In this document: in pieces, positions 12,587 through 18,613 of the stretch
How positions within the stretch are numbered: the stretch's first letter is position 1
Layout of the letters: the number at the start of each line of letters is the position of its first letter
Assembly (NCBI RefSeq): GCF_029689945.1
Contig: NZ_CP121451.1
Span: 5,022,001-5,086,000 of the forward strand
Direction of reading: 5' to 3'
From: Paenibacillus amylolyticus
GTDB taxonomy: Bacteria; Bacillota; Bacilli; Paenibacillales; Paenibacillaceae
Length of the DNA stretch: 64,000 nucleotides
Translations under genes and position numbers: made by a program
The notes under the pieces: model-generated
What the model was told of the DNA's origin: nothing
The model's input: only the letters and a program-made list of their open reading frames with translations
The model's database searches: none

Positions 12587-13698
12587 TTGTTGACATCACG
12601 TATTGATCGGAGCCACAGACTTATCACTTCTCTTGAAAAAGGAACCTGGACCTCACGTACCTACCGGGAAGCTGTTCTCAAGCAGATCCTTACGGTTGTA
12701 CCATACGACGCGTACTGTTTCACCACCGTTGATCCACTGACTCTTCTCTCCACAGGAGCTGTGACAGAAGAAGGCATTGAAGCCATTCATGATCGGTTAT
12801 TCGTCAATGAATACATGGAAGAAGATATACATAAATACGCTGAGTTAATACGAAGTGGTGAACATACAGCTATTCTTTATGCATCCATAAACGCACACCC
12901 TGAACAAAGCTCAAGATATATCAACATTCTTCTGCCAGCGGGGTTCGGGGATGAACTGCGCGCTGTATTGGTCAGTGGAGACGCTTGTTGGGGATATTTG
13001 ACCCTATATCGCAAGACTGAGAATTCTTTCTTTACAGAAGAAGAACGGTTGCTGATTCAGGCCTGGACGGCTTCTATTGCATTGATGCTGCGGTCCACAA
13101 GTCTGACCCTTGTGGAGGAGATCACGAATGGAAGTCCTGAGGAACCCGGGATCATGATCACCTCGGATACGTTCCAGCTCTTATCCCTGAACGCACCGGC
13201 AGCGTATTGGCTGTCCCAATTGCGTATGCTGGAACATGTAGGCCGGATGTTCTGCCCCGTCCGGTACGTGCAGTGAGTTCCCACTTGCAGCGCAAAAATC
13301 AGGCAGAACAGGCTAAAAATACTCAGATCGCTCCCGACTCACCATCCAAAGTCTGCATTCAACTTCCGGATGGGCGTTACCTCATACTTCATGCCAGTCT
13401 CATGCAACAACTTGCAGGACCCGAACAGATTGCCATCCGTTTGGAGCAGGCGATGCCGCAGGATTTGCTGCCCTTGCTTGCCGAGAGCCATGGATTATCC
13501 AATCGAGAACGGGAACTGCTCGGTTATGTATTGCGTAGCTACTCTTCCAAAGAAATTGCTGCAGCGATGCATATCTCTGTTTACACCGTTCAGGATCATT
13601 TGAAATCCATTTTCGCCAAAACCAAGGTTTCCTCCCGTCGAGAGCTTATCTGGTATTTCGTTTCCCGTTTTCAACTGTCGGATGAACCTGCGATATAA
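12587..13698 (+). CDS. LuxR-type transcriptional regulator with N-terminal GAF-like domain (frameshift near 13250)
   Basis: About 370 aa. TTG start at 12587, just after GAGGAGA. The N-terminal 190 residues (TVVPYDAYCFTTVDPLT, FGDELRAVLVSGDACWGYLT, EEERLLIQAWTASIALMLR) resemble a GAF sensor. The C-terminal LuxR/FixJ helix-turn-helix is GLSNRERELLGYVLRSYSSK with the recognition part MHISVYTVQDHLKSIF. The first frame ends at 13276; restoring one G in the C/G run near 13250 (VGR / DVLPRPVRAVSS) gives one continuous protein. The gene diverges from the methyltransferase/dehydrogenase pair and is a candidate regulator of it. The ligand is unknown. Confidence 0.8.
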
Positions 13699-13771
13699 CG
13701 AGACAGAACAGACGAACAATCGCTCAATAGACTACGAATAATAACAATCTACATTGTTTCTGGCATACAGC

Positions 13772-13808
13772 AAAAAAGAAGCCAATCCTTGAAGGATCGG
13801 CTTCTTCT
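13772..13808. terminator. Bidirectional terminator between convergent genes
   Basis: Arms AAGAAGCC-ATCCTT and AAGGAT-GGCTTCTT (13777-13806) form a stem with A runs on the left and T-rich sequence on the right. It sits between the converging luxR-type gene (stop 13698) and yidC (stop 13888). Confidence 0.75.
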
Positions 13809-13887
13809 TACGCTTTTGCTACGTTTAACACGTTCTATATCCCATATATTCACAACAACACCGTCTTAATCACGTGAATATCATATC

Positions 13888-14775
13888 CTACGATTTTGCA
13901 GGTTTCCGAGTAGGCTTGGATGAGTTAGATTTCTTGTTCTTTTTCTTACTCACTTCCACAACTACAGGCTCCTGCGGGTGTTCTAGCGGGTACATTTTAC
14001 GGAATAATAACGTCTGTAGTACCAGGAACGAACCCCCAACCGTCCAGTAGAGCGGCATGGCTGCCGGGGCTGATAGAGAAAAGAATGCCATCATTAACGG
14101 GGAGATATACCCCATAATAGCGAACTGTTTTCGCTGCTCAGGCGCCATATTGGCTTGTGATACCTTGGCTTGAATCAGATAAATGACCGCAACCACCACA
14201 GCGAGTACGTAATCCGGCGCGCCCAGTTTAAACCACAGGAACGAATGGGAGGACAACTCCGGTGTAAGTCGGATGGCTGTGTATATCCCGGACAGAATAG
14301 GCAACTGTATAAGCATCGGCAAGCAACCAATGTTCAGCGGATTGAACTTGTGTTTCTTGTATAGTTCCATCGTTTCCTGTGACAGCTTTTGCTTATCAGC
14401 AGGGTCATTTTTGCCTTCATATTTTTTCTTGAGCGCATCCATTTCTGGTTTCATGGCGTTCATGATGACTCGTGTTCCCTGCTGGGACTTGGCTTGACGC
14501 ATCATCAATGGTAACAGTGCCAGACGAATGACCAGCGTAATGACGATAATTGCGACCCCGTAACTTCCGCTAAATAGGGTAGCAATATGCTGAATCAGAT
14601 ACGACAGCGGAAATACAATATAGTGATTAAAAAATCCCGGTGTCGATGAAGTAATCTCCGACACGTTGTTACTGCATCCGGCAAGCAGCATGACTGCAAA
14701 CAAAATGGCAATCAGGCCATAGACCCGTCCCTTGCCCGATCTAAAAGTGAATCCCTTGTTAGTTTTATGTTCCAT
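13888..14775 (-). CDS. yidC: YidC/Oxa1-family membrane protein insertase (lipoprotein type)
   Basis: About 295 aa from ATG 14775, which has GAGGAGG 6-8 nt upstream; an in-frame start further upstream lacks this. A lipoprotein signal with lipobox LLAGC precedes the YidC core: FPLSYLIQHIATLFSGSYGVAI-type segment, RLALLPLMMRQAKSQ, KFNPLNIGCLPMLIQLPIL, PLYWTVGGSFLVLQ. Several membrane segments and the conserved Arg in the hydrophilic groove (VIRLALLP) are visible; the tail is Lys-rich (VSKKKNKKSNSS). It inserts membrane proteins with or without SecYEG. The single copy in this window resembles the inducible second YidC of Bacillus, because the leader upstream carries a ribosome-stalling-like ORF and a hairpin covering its ribosome binding site. 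Confidence 0.92.
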   Translation of the reverse strand: MEHKTNKGFTFRSGKGRVYGLIAILFAVMLLAGCSNNVSEITSSTPGFFNHYIVFPLSYLIQHIATLFSGSYGVAIIVITLVIRLALLPLMMRQAKSQQGTRVIMNAMKPEMDALKKKYEGKNDPADKQKLSQETMELYKKHKFNPLNIGCLPMLIQLPILSGIYTAIRLTPELSSHSFLWFKLGAPDYVLAVVVAVIYLIQAKVSQANMAPEQRKQFAIMGYISPLMMAFFSLSAPAAMPLYWTVGGSFLVLQTLLFRKMYPLEHPQEPVVVEVSKKKNKKSNSSKPTRKPAKS

Positions 14776-15062
14776 ATATATCCTCCTCGTTGATTTGTTG
14801 ACCCATCGTTCAACGAGGAATGACAATCTGAATCATCTTCATCGGGCGCTTCTCTTCGTCTGATCAAGCGGCTCCAGACTTCCTGTCTGTGTTGTCTATC
14901 CAAGCACAATGCGGGAAGTACTGGTTCAAGTCCACCACCCACGCCACCTTCCATCCAGTACTCTGTCATGCCACAGTGTAGATGGGCAATATAAGCATAG
15001 CTAACGGTGAAGATGAGTCCAATCGAGAATAAATATGGTAAAAACTCCTGCAGTTCAAACAA
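14712..15062 (-). CDS. MifM-like regulatory leader ORF upstream of yidC (candidate translation-arrest sensor)
   Basis: TTG start at 15062, 6-8 nt after AAAGGGGGTG (mrpA uses the same GGGGGTG signal). Residues about 3-28 form one hydrophobic membrane segment (FLPYLFSIGLIFTVSYAYIA). A hydrophilic linker leads to a basic stretch EVWSRLIRRREAPDEDDSD (residues about 61-79). Bacillus subtilis MifM has the same plan: N-terminal membrane anchor that acts as YidC substrate, then a tail with W/R-rich residues and an acidic DEED stall site. Here the acidic codons (14826-14843) end 7 nt before the hairpin hiding the yidC Shine-Dalgarno. As read, the ORF runs on through the yidC start to 14712, whereas MifM ends earlier; a frameshift error could explain this. 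The homology is inferred from plan and short motif likeness, not overall identity. Confidence 0.65.
   Translation of the reverse strand: MFELQEFLPYLFSIGLIFTVSYAYIAHLHCGMTEYWMEGGVGGGLEPVLPALCLDRQHRQEVWSRLIRRREAPDEDDSDCHSSLNDGSTNQRGGYIWNIKLTRDSLLDRARDGSMA
14784..14819 (-). promoter_or_regulatory. Hairpin sequestering the yidC ribosome binding site
   Basis: A perfect 10-bp inverted repeat: TCCTCGTTGA at 14784-14793 and TCAACGAGGA at 14810-14819, with a 16-nt loop. In the mRNA the 3' arm contains GAGGA of the yidC Shine-Dalgarno GAGGAGG, so the folded state would block initiation. The 5' arm lies immediately downstream of the DEDDSD codons of the leader ORF. A ribosome paused there would cover the 5' arm and free the Shine-Dalgarno. 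No T run follows, so it is not a terminator. Confidence 0.75.
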
Positions 15063-15154
15063 GGGATTCACCCCCTTTATAGGTTAGTTTTTATATTATA
15101 ACACTTACATATTGTTTTTGCATAAATCCATATATGAAAAAAGTTATTATTCAA

Positions 15155-16674
15155 CTACTCCGTTCTCAATTTGGACATTTCTAGCTCAGCTTTGTGTTTG
15201 GCAACGTTATAAGAAGGCCAGGCACGATTGGATGTATCCATCTCCAGATAAGCTTGACGTTCCAGCATTTCTCTCTTGAGATCCGGGTACTCCTTCAGCG
15301 CAAACTCTCGAAGTAACGGAGTTGCATCAGCCGATAGACTTGCCAGGTAGGTGACATCAATATCGCCAGTCTGGTGGTAACGTTCTATGTTCAATTCGGC
15401 AATTCTGCGATCCATGCCCACATAATTGACCGCAACATAGGCAGTAAGCGCCAGTATAATATAGCAGCGAATCAGTGGAATCGACGTATACCGTATACGA
15501 AGGCCGGCAATCAGCAACAGAAGTGCCAGAAAAATCATGAATGCGTGTACCAGAAACCGAATGTAGGTATATCCATATGCTTGCTCATACAGATTTAGGC
15601 GCATAAACGCGGAATATAACATAATTGCTGAACAGCTGACCAGGATCAGGAGCAGTACCTGATGTACGATGGAACCCGCTTTTCCACTCGGACGCGTAAA
15701 TTGCAAAGCAACAATAAGAATAAAAAAGTTAATACCCGTAACGAGAATCAACTCGGCGAATCCACTTCTCGCATACTCCGCGTAAGACAAGTCTACCGGA
15801 AGTTGTCCCTCTCCCGCACCAAACAGATACGAAAACTGTACAAGCACAAACAAAACGTACACACCGTTGATGACGATCAGCATCGTACCCATAATGATGG
15901 GGTCCAACCTGAATGGTTCCCGCTGAACCGGAGTGCGTTCTCCATTTTTCCAATGTGCATTCTCTCTCTTCTCTGCCTCATATTGCATCGGCTGCACAAA
16001 TCCCCATACATAACCGAATAGCAATATGCCCGCGACGAGAACCCAGATGATTCTGGGCAATCCTGGCGTAAAAGTTAGTTGATTCAGCCACTCCGGGAAA
16101 CCGGATAAATATTGATCGAAGACTCCGTCAGCTGAAGACAGTAATGCGATGACAACGATAAGAATAGGCAAAGACGCCACAAGACCGATGAGCACTTTGA
16201 AAACAACTGTTTTCTGTGATTTGCCCATGCCACGCCCCCTGCTCTCACAGCAATGACCCCAACAGTCCCCCAATGACGTATGGCTTGAGGCAGTAAATGG
16301 TCAATCGCCGTACCAATCAACCCGATCTCCCACCACTGTTTCTGTTTTCTACCCATCAGATAAGTCATATGTAAGATGATTAGGCCCGGTACAACCAGGA
16401 AATTAAGAACACGCAGCAGTTCATTGTCGTATAACAGAAACGTTAGTGATAACAACAACACTACACCCGCCACAAAAGCATCAATGAACTTGAAGGACCT
16501 TATACGATCCCGTGCAAACAAATACATGAACACATAAAAGAGAATAACGAAGATTGGATACGATACGCCAAGCTCATTACCATAGAATAAATACTGGTGA
16601 ATGATCGCCAGCATCCATGCAGACAGTAGCGTGATTAGAGCACGGTGCGGTGAAGCCATTATTTTATCAATCAT
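15155..16674 (-). CDS. DUF4173-like polytopic membrane protein (frameshift near 16225)
   Basis: About 506 aa after repair. Start ATG 16674, 8 nt after GGAGG. About ten to twelve hydrophobic spans are visible, for example LITLLSAWMLAIIHQYLFY, FVAGVVLLLSLTFLLY, VLIGLVASLPILIVVIALLS, IIWVLVAGILLFGYVWGFV and LALLLLIAGLRI. A hydrophilic C-terminal tail of about 100 residues (EYPDLKREMLERQAYLEMD) follows. The pattern and the segment SSADGVFDQYLSGFPEWL fit DUF4153/DUF4173 proteins, which have no established biochemical role. The break is one base in the G run near 16225, between VRAGG and GMGKSQKTVVFK. It lies upstream of the yidC leader in the same orientation with an 84-nt gap. Confidence 0.75.
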
Positions 16675-16809
16675 GGGAAAAACCTCCATTAACCTTTCTA
16701 TGACTAATTCTAGATGATAAAATAGGAATATAAATAGAAATTAAAATCAGCAAAACTTCTTATTTTAGAGGAATCCGTCAGTGTTCACCTCCAGGAGGCA
16801 ATCATCACT

Positions 16810-18613
16810 TTGAAATTACATCAGCAATACCTGCTATTACATCGCCAATTCGGTCACCATAGAGAACATGAACTTACGCTTGCTGACCTCGCTGAATTAC
16901 TCGATTGCACGCATCGTAACACATTAACAATTGTCAAAAAGATGGTTGCTCAAGACTGGATACGTTGGGTTTCTCAGCGTGGACGCGGTCGCCGTTCTTC
17001 ACTGACCTTGCTCATCCCGGCTGATCAAATCGCCGCTGAATACATGATGCAGGCCATGAATCGCCGGGAATTGCAGGAAGCTGCCGAGCAGGTGAGTGCA
17101 TTCTCCAGTTCAACAGCCATGCAGGATCATCTAAACCAGTGGTTACTAGGATATTCAGGCCATCATACAGAAGCAGGCACCAATAATGAGCAGATTGATA
17201 CACTTCGGTTACCCCTGCGCCAACAGCTTCATGCGCTTGATCCGCTGTACATTAATTTGCTCGCTGAGTCCTTTGTTACCAGTCATGTCTTTGACGGGTT
17301 GGTTCAGCGGGGTGATCAAGGCGAGATTCTCCCCTGTCTCGCTCATACCTGGGATGTTAGTGCAGACCGACAGACCTGGACGTTTTATTTACGAAAAGGC
17401 ATTATATTTCACAATGGTTAGCTGCTGACAGCTCATGATATTGTGCATACGTTTGAACGGCTGCAATCCACAGTTCGGCGGACACTGTACCGTGATGTAA
17501 GTAAACAGATTTTATCTATCGAAGCGGTCGATTACTTAACCGTGTGTTTTCAGCTTCAAGAGCCTCACGAATTGTTTTTGTCTTTCCTGACGACAAGTCG
17601 TGCGGCAATTGTACCTTCACCCGGAACACACGAACAGAGCAAGAAGCATACGGGTGATGTCGATGGAATGCAAAAACCTGTCGGAACCGGGCCGTTCAAG
17701 GTTACTGCTTGGGATGATCACTTGTGCAGACTTGAAGCCTTTTCATCGTATTTCCAGGGTAGAGCTCATATGGATCGGGTAGATATTCTGCAAATTCCGT
17801 GGAGTGCCTCGGACAAAATGGATGGTCATCAAGAGATCGAAACTCCATTCTTCCACCTTGTCCATAATCCGTCTTCGTCTGCAAGTTCAGACTGGACACA
17901 GATTAGTGCAGGTGTAATGGTTCATAAATTACTCACGTGTAATACGCAAAAACCGGACCGTTAAACGATCCGGAAGTAAGAGCTCACATCCAGTCATGCC
18001 TTGCTGGCATGTATAGAGATGACCGATATGCAGATGACTCTGAGATCGCGGTACCTGATTTTAGTGCGGTGAGTACCCGGATGGTCCAGGTCCATTCGGC
18101 GGGATGTAGCGATAGATCTCAACGACTCACTGCCACTCCTCCCATTTCCCTGCACATTGCAACCATTCCACAATACCGCAGGGATGCTCAACAACTGGCA
18201 TCTATTTTGGAGCAGTGCGGTTACTCCTGTACCGTCCGCACAGGCACGATGGAGCAGTTCAAAGGAGATCTGCGGCTGGAGTCTGATCTGATTCTCTTTC
18301 TCTGATTCGGGACAGAGACGAAGAACTGCGCAGGTATGATCTCTACTCTACGGTGTCTGAGCATCTGGAAGATTCGGCTCGGATGACGATTCATAAGATG
18401 TTGCAATCCGTTGTTGCCTCTCCGATTGCAGCAGATCGAACTGCTGAATTAGATCGAATTGAGCGATTCTTGGTTAGCCAGAATTTACTCTTCCATTTAT
18501 CCAAAAAACCGGTAGAAACCGCTTATTTGCCTTCCGTGCGCGGCCTATCTTTCAACAGCCAGGGCTGGGTGAACCTGCGTCATATCTGGTTTCCGTCGCA
18601 GCTAAAGAATTGA
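16810..18613 (+). CDS. SgrR-like transcriptional regulator with solute-binding domain (one nonsense codon, two frameshifts)
   Basis: About 601 aa when repaired. TTG start at 16810 after AGGAGG. The N-terminal winged helix matches SgrR (ELTLADLAELLDCTHRNTLT, WVSQRGRGRRSSLTLL), followed by a periplasmic-binding-like SBP_bac_5 domain (LAESFVTSHVFDGLVQR, EILPCLAHTWDVSADRQTW, KPVGTGPFKVT). These proteins sense a small ligand with the binding domain. An in-frame TAG at 17419 interrupts HNG-LLTAHDIVHTF while the frame continues unchanged. One A is missing near 17948-17955 (QK/TGPLNDPEV) and one T near 18300 (LILF/SLIRDRDEEL). The TAG is the only clear nonsense substitution seen in the window, so this may be a decaying gene, but sequencing error is equally possible. 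It diverges from the DUF4173-like gene. Confidence 0.72.

Follow-up and report, generated by a model that had tools for sequence, protein, structure and literature searches.

The window (the whole 64-kb stretch of DNA that was analysed) carries on its minus strand a yidC gene whose start is overlapped by an upstream open reading frame (uORF); the features of this locus are collected in Table 1. The source genome has two yidC copies. As the other one sits behind rpmH- and rnpA-like ORFs (recognised by eye), a neighbourhood that we take to be the usual place of the primary copy, the yidC described here is the secondary copy. The uORF starts with the TTG at 15062 and its stop codon is 14712-14714, so that it extends 64 nt beyond the yidC ATG at 14775. 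The first-pass annotation had given the frame as 14712..15071 and named no strand. The minus-strand ORF is real, but 15071 is the GTG that opens the longest frame (15071-14712) and lies inside the Shine-Dalgarno sequence of the uORF itself. The TTG start that it had named is found at the same position in all 72 genus relatives fetched, and the claimed overlap with yidC was recovered. EVWSRLIRRREAPDEDDSD, placed near residues 61-79, occupies exactly residues 61-79, and the one N-terminal membrane segment is predicted (hydropathy maximum 1.64) and conserved in relatives.

Table 1. Coordinates of the yidC leader and its predicted elements in the window
Feature	Position	Strand	Basis or remark
Second yidC, 295 aa (60KD_IMP), putative regulated gene	13888..14775	-	PF02096, E 4.7e-45; first 64 nt overlap the uORF
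uORF, putative MifM-family leader peptide, 116 aa	14712..15062	-	TTG start; sequence and dN/dS
Shine-Dalgarno core of yidC, GGAGG	14782..14786	-	Sequence, hairpin comparison
Hairpin 3' arm TCAACGAGGA, covering part of the yidC Shine-Dalgarno	14784..14793	-	Sequence, folding, covariation
Hairpin 5' arm TCCTCGTTGA	14810..14819	-	Sequence, folding, covariation
Candidate arrest motif HRQEVWSRLIRRREAPDEDDSDC, codons 58-80	14823..14891	-	Conservation; ungapped match to MifM
Predicted transmembrane segment, codons 7-25, with an acidic N-terminus ahead	14988..15044	-	Hydropathy maximum; dN/dS
Shine-Dalgarno of the uORF AAAGGGGGTGA	15068..15078	-	Sequence; similar purine-rich site 5' of the TTG in 72 of 72 relatives
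Possible extended -10 promoter element TGTTATAAT	15095..15103	-	By eye, weak; absent from the consensus-scan list

The uORF had no match in Pfam or NCBIfam at E values up to 1, none in the PDB when the single sequence was used, and an Rfam scan of 14600-15250 gave no match at E up to 1. Transcription attenuation was considered and rejected: positions 13700-15300 contain 2 terminator-like sites, compared with 1.6 in shuffled sequences, and the sole one on the minus strand lies inside yidC.

Distribution and conservation of the uORF

Searching with the source YidC, we found the second yidC in 73 of 75 genus genomes, source genome included; G013 and G074 have a single yidC. The upstream DNA was taken from the 72 genomes other than the source that have the second copy. 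The uORF precedes that copy in all 73 (72 of 72 fetched relatives) and is intact in 72 of them (71 of the relatives) and broken in one. A TTG following a Shine-Dalgarno sequence is present in 72/72 relatives (the script sought TTG), 73/73 with the source genome, and seven of the relatives listed also have an in-frame ATG upstream that overlaps the Shine-Dalgarno. The signature PD[DE]D occurs in 72/72 relatives, at loci recruited by YidC alone. The uORFs are 89-92% identical in named relatives including Paenibacillus amylolyticus and P. xylanexedens. In an alignment of 27 sequences P9, Y10, G15, L16, V20, H27, L28, R68, R69, P73, D74 and D76 are invariant; W63 is variable within the genus. The first-pass annotation had proposed aligning yidC leaders of relatives for the membrane segment, the acidic motif and the hairpin, and all three proved to be conserved. 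A stop at codon 52 interrupts the uORF frame in locus L046 (a metagenome-assembled genome) and in L105, its named twin; motif and hairpin persist downstream, and the break is either an error or a recent loss. In G072 and G016 the YidC match to the second yidC contains an in-frame stop (TAG and TAA) and the uORF is intact.

The association of the uORF with a second yidC was also examined in 26 genomes. Of these, 25 (G013 and G074 included) were taken because the search results showed them as non-matching for the uORF, and are no random draw; G140 was taken because it did match. Each of the 25 carries a single yidC, whereas G140 carries two; beyond these genomes a second yidC may occur without the uORF.

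Beyond the genus, the genus profile (E cut-off 0.01) matched 206 of 394 family genomes, spread over 14 of the 19 genera. A family-wide profile matched 173 of 392 genomes in the order and 33 of 299 in the class, and a class-wide profile 47 of 398 genomes; these samples overlap, part of the matches were inspected, and the weakest, some with internal stops, may be chance. The named proteins outside the family are from Peribacillus, Metabacillus and Bacillus. A further 58 loci were inspected, 11 of them being named records from genomes sampled before. In 57 a recognisable uORF stands immediately before yidC; inspection of the locus DNA revealed no yidC beside the uORF of L129. At 19 more distant loci a YidC match was present in all and a recognisable uORF in 18, L210 being doubtful. 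Among 128 intact loci counted in relatives, 127 have a uORF that overlaps yidC. In the exception, L165, the script's choice of starts leaves 36 nt between the end of the uORF and yidC, and the hairpin register is off by 2 nt. The overlap is absent from the more distant L209, L211, L213, L218, L219 and L221.

Start codons chosen by the script at 57 loci were 37 TTG, 16 ATG, 2 GTG and 2 CTG. In four loci the CTG is the likely start, because it follows a good Shine-Dalgarno and an in-frame stop lies directly 5' of it (L213, L218, L219) or a few codons 5' (L221); three of them belong to one genus (L218, L219 and L221, genus g8) and L213 to another family. Weak initiation of the uORF may be selected.

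The conserved motif reads R-x3-R-K/R-E-A/S-P-D-D/E-D-x2-D-C. In 47 non-redundant sequences, partly recruited by profile, its residues were counted as follows: L63 in 38, R65 in 43, R69 in 44, K/R70, A/S72 and P73 in all 47, D74 in 45, D76 in 46 and C80 in 43. The anchor pattern demands a Pro with basic and acidic neighbours, and none of 129 sequences failed it. The net charge of the first nine residues is -2 or -3 in 129/129, and the N-terminal membrane segment is likely to be N-out.

Selection on the peptide was estimated from 22 representatives of 43 equally long uORFs. The dN/dS over codons 1-81 was 0.091, indicating strong purifying selection, with 0.030 for codons 1-30, 0.127 for codons 31-60 and 0.153 for codons 61-81; a second group (11 representatives of 15 uORFs) gave 0.093, and the other two frames of the same DNA 1.3 and 2.3. 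The ratio was 1.09 at codons 82-96 (the hairpin region) and 2.8 at codons 97-116 (the yidC overlap). There pN was 0.21 and 0.12, respectively, compared to 0.11 in the motif, and pS was low (0.19 and 0.04) because the hairpin, the Shine-Dalgarno and yidC constrain the DNA beyond codon 81; the ratios consequently show no peptide selection past this point, yet are no proof of its absence. Family-wide, position 81 carries 0.8 bits of information against 3.8 bits at C80, and conservation returns at S83 and G93-G94, within the DNA of the hairpin and the Shine-Dalgarno. We take this to mean that the peptide is important as far as roughly codon 80, which is what would be expected of an arrest peptide.

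The hairpin and the predicted stall site

The acidic codons are followed by a perfect 10-bp hairpin, as the first-pass annotation had described, with a gap after the D79 codon of 6 nt rather than the 7 nt that it gave; it had also rightly placed part of the yidC Shine-Dalgarno in the 3' arm, which contains the GGA of GGAGG. The fold of the source DNA alone is only mildly unusual (z -1.75; 9 of 200 shuffles were as stable), so the evidence for the hairpin is comparative. A script placed the hairpin at its best position in 130 sequences, 94 of them distinct, and chose the same position, 27 nt after the first base of the P73 codon, in 125 of 130; poor placements include L126, L163, L172 and L176. 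In 71 distinct arm pairs, 91% of cells (over the ten positions) pair. Relative to the commonest pair, 78 cells were changed on both sides; 500 shufflings of the arms, a control blind to the relatedness of the sequences, gave 19.8 such cells on average and never more than 34. Changes on both sides were found in separate genera (L043/L044, L166/L167, L168, L177, L197 and L198). The predicted pairing of the Shine-Dalgarno averaged 0.79; with the upstream sequence shuffled it was still 0.67, and for several sequences the majority of shuffles paired it equally well. Since this measure separates poorly from the shuffles, the case for the hairpin is carried by covariation and by register. The latter is strict: the distance from the Cys80 codon to the hairpin is 6 nt in 120 of the 123 sequences with Cys80 (130 examined). 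L163 and L192, from different genera, are one codon longer between D76 and D79; there too the hairpin lies 6 nt from the Cys, having moved with it. The register is therefore tied to D79-C80.

To model a ribosome in folding, the mRNA that it covers was removed, assuming that coverage extends +15 or +12 nt from the P-site. As long as the P-site was at codons 70-76 the designated helix had a probability of 0.86; this dropped to 0.44 once the P-site reached codon 78 (or 79) and to 0.04 one codon on. Mean pairing of the Shine-Dalgarno, initially about 0.80, was lowest (0.21) with the P-site at codon 78 (or 79), and past the minimum climbed to 0.4-0.46 via other pairings; in the source sequence it fell from 0.94 to 0.04 and then stayed at or below 0.19. 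MifM stalls mainly at codons 89-92 (PMC6037786), which correspond to codons 79-82 of the uORF in the ungapped alignment. The estimates from folding and from MifM would thus meet around codons 78-80. Pausing had earlier been expected at codons 74-80; the predicted useful stall falls at the end of that range, 78-80, and with the P-site at 74-76 the helix is intact.

On the model of MifM (PMC6037786) and CliM (PMC13183943), from which stalling, its YidC-dependent release and the induction of yidC are inferred, the nascent uORF chain would halt its own ribosome when the P-site is near codons 78-80. In this position the ribosome would cover the 5' arm and free the Shine-Dalgarno, allowing yidC to be translated. 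Insertion of the membrane segment by YidC would exert the pull that releases the stall; the ribosome would then pass the yidC start, the hairpin refold and yidC be repressed again. Because released ribosomes would cross the yidC start, they might also disfavour its use, which is a guess.

Relation to MifM and other arrest peptides

MifM (YqzJ) of B. subtilis, the YidC-activity sensor that controls yidC2 (yqjG), likewise lies upstream of a second yidC and shares with the uORF an N-terminal membrane segment, a basic-then-acidic C-terminal stretch and a stem-loop masking the Shine-Dalgarno. The features that mark the MifM family were found as follows. The uORF lies directly upstream of a secondary yidC, and predicted folding and comparison point to a hairpin that masks the Shine-Dalgarno. 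The predicted spacer between membrane segment and motif has a median of 53 residues in the uORF family, compared to 54 residues in MifM (PMC10987492). DEDDSD, read by eye from the sequence at residues 74-79, lies within residues 70-100, where an acidic stretch was the working criterion by which 572 MifM sequences were chosen (PMC10987492). Sequence homology to MifM is reached through Bacillaceae-type intermediates, the direct comparisons being weak.

Low overall likeness to MifM had been noted from the start, leaving open a diverged MifM or an independent arrest peptide. The uORF segment HRQEVWSRLIRRREAPDEDDSD aligns without a gap to HRITTWIRKVFRMNSPVNDEED of MifM. BLAST of the uORF against Bacillus mojavensis MifM gave 11/27 identical residues and E 4e-5, a value set aside because locally shuffled sequences reach the uORF-MifM alignment score in 4-7 of 1000 cases; most of seven uORF relatives tried align with MifM worse than the source uORF does. 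With a profile made from Paenibacillaceae only, MifM ranked second of 177,635 PDB sequences (E 0.26, below an insect odorant-binding protein at 0.14), and adding Bacilli left it in second place (E 0.66; the top-ranked protein had 0.054); neither is significant in a blind search. Comparing profile with profile, Paenibacillaceae against the intermediates gave E 5.9e-12, the intermediates against B. subtilis MifM 1.8e-6, and Paenibacillaceae against MifM directly 0.014. Among 60 fully and 60 C-terminally permuted decoys, none equalled either intermediate link, and one of the C-terminally permuted ones equalled the direct comparison. Because Paenibacillaceae sequences were part of the profile that retrieved the intermediates, the first link is to some extent built in, which does not apply to the second. 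The profile comparison favours a diverged MifM, and these similarities make homology between the uORF family and MifM very likely.

An independent origin, in which a convergent arrest peptide has acquired the job and layout of MifM, draws on the weak direct likeness and on the view that arrest peptides before sec and yidC genes arise repeatedly (PMC10987492). We nevertheless consider it improbable, as graded intermediates (named ones from Peribacillus, Metabacillus and Bacillus) join the two groups, in register over W, R and D and with decoys as control. Two further classes of arrest peptide resemble the uORF in layout. CliM (uC_KYxIW) of Clostridia precedes yidC and has a single membrane segment; an RNA structure there reduces expression of yidC2, and no sequence likeness of CliM to MifM is reported (PMC13183943). 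The uORF shares its position before yidC, its single membrane segment and the presence of an RNA structure; the KYxIW motif was not seen by eye in the uORF alignments, one of which was viewed at every second row. ApcA of Actinobacteria, like the uORF, is a uORF of a presumably secondary yidC with an N-terminal membrane segment (PMC7897499), and its C-terminal motif is RAPG (PMC10987492). No RAPG- or RAPP-like C-terminal motif was seen in the uORF family, which has the conserved R-K/R-E-A/S-P-D there instead.

Plain translational coupling would give the peptide itself no stall: any ribosome translating the uORF, which overlaps yidC, would open the hairpin. Such coupling needs no conserved peptide, in contrast to the strong selection up to about codon 81, and the motif stops six nt short of the hairpin, with 36 codons of the ORF still to come; we regard plain coupling as very unlikely. 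In favour of a functional small membrane protein merely encoded upstream of yidC, the membrane segment is the best conserved part (dN/dS 0.030). This reading is hardly credible given the fixed register from codon 80 to the hairpin and the restriction of the uORF, among the genomes checked, to carriers of a second yidC.

The uORF is thus most probably a diverged MifM-family arrest peptide that would monitor YidC. The residues essential in MifM are RIxxWIxxxxxMNxxxxDEED (PMC7897499). MifM R69, W73, D86, D89 and the acidic residue 87 are matched by R59, W63, D76, D79 and D77 of the uORF, and I70, I74, M80, N81 and E88 are unmatched; the uORF motif keeps P-D-x-D and a Cys in place of the M-N and DEED of MifM. 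In contrast to MifM, the uORF family starts mostly with TTG. It also overlaps yidC, whereas the mifM stem-loop is intergenic and the 95-codon mifM ORF is read to within a few codons of its stop before stalling occurs (PMC6037786). The uL22 protein of the source genome has a Met at residue 90 (counted by hand) and was left out of the argument. B. subtilis uL22 also has Met90. We put forward tentatively, at somewhat below an even chance, that the arrest chemistry of the Paenibacillaceae differs, with two near-invariant Arg, Pro-Asp-x-Asp and a Cys marking the stall codon instead of four acidic residues, so that the stalling code would have changed and the job been kept. If so, the non-ATG starts and the overlap with yidC would be a second layer of repression after release of the stall.

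Three arrest peptides are known before yidC, of which MifM and CliM are taken as independent inventions (PMC13183943). A MifM family that spans Paenibacillaceae and Bacillaceae-type genomes and has a changed motif would be a set of natural variants with traceable divergence in motif, spacer and hairpin register, making it directly testable which nascent-chain contacts matter. The string 'Paenibacill' is absent from the main text of PMC10987492, and a literature search on MifM or YidC arrest peptides in Paenibacillus, judged partly on titles and the beginnings of abstracts, returned nothing on the topic. MifM itself is known; the Paenibacillaceae motif, the codon-80 boundary, the hairpin register and the frequent non-ATG starts were in none of the papers found, as far as these titles, abstracts and texts extend. 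Published MifM surveys may already include some Paenibacillaceae sequences; in that case the motif change, the selection boundary and the hairpin register would still be useful additions.

Neighbouring genes in the window

A DUF4153 match and an SBP_bac_5 match, at 15155-16689 and 16810-17964, are divided between two ORFs each (the shorter DUF4153 piece is just below the cut-off), suggesting frameshifts in the genes or in the assembly. The completeness of the source genome is 95.84, lower than that of 69 of 74 genus relatives. At 12587-13698, what looks like a single regulator gene is split between two reading frames: the two plus-strand ORFs there overlap, and the second has a LuxR-type domain at its end.
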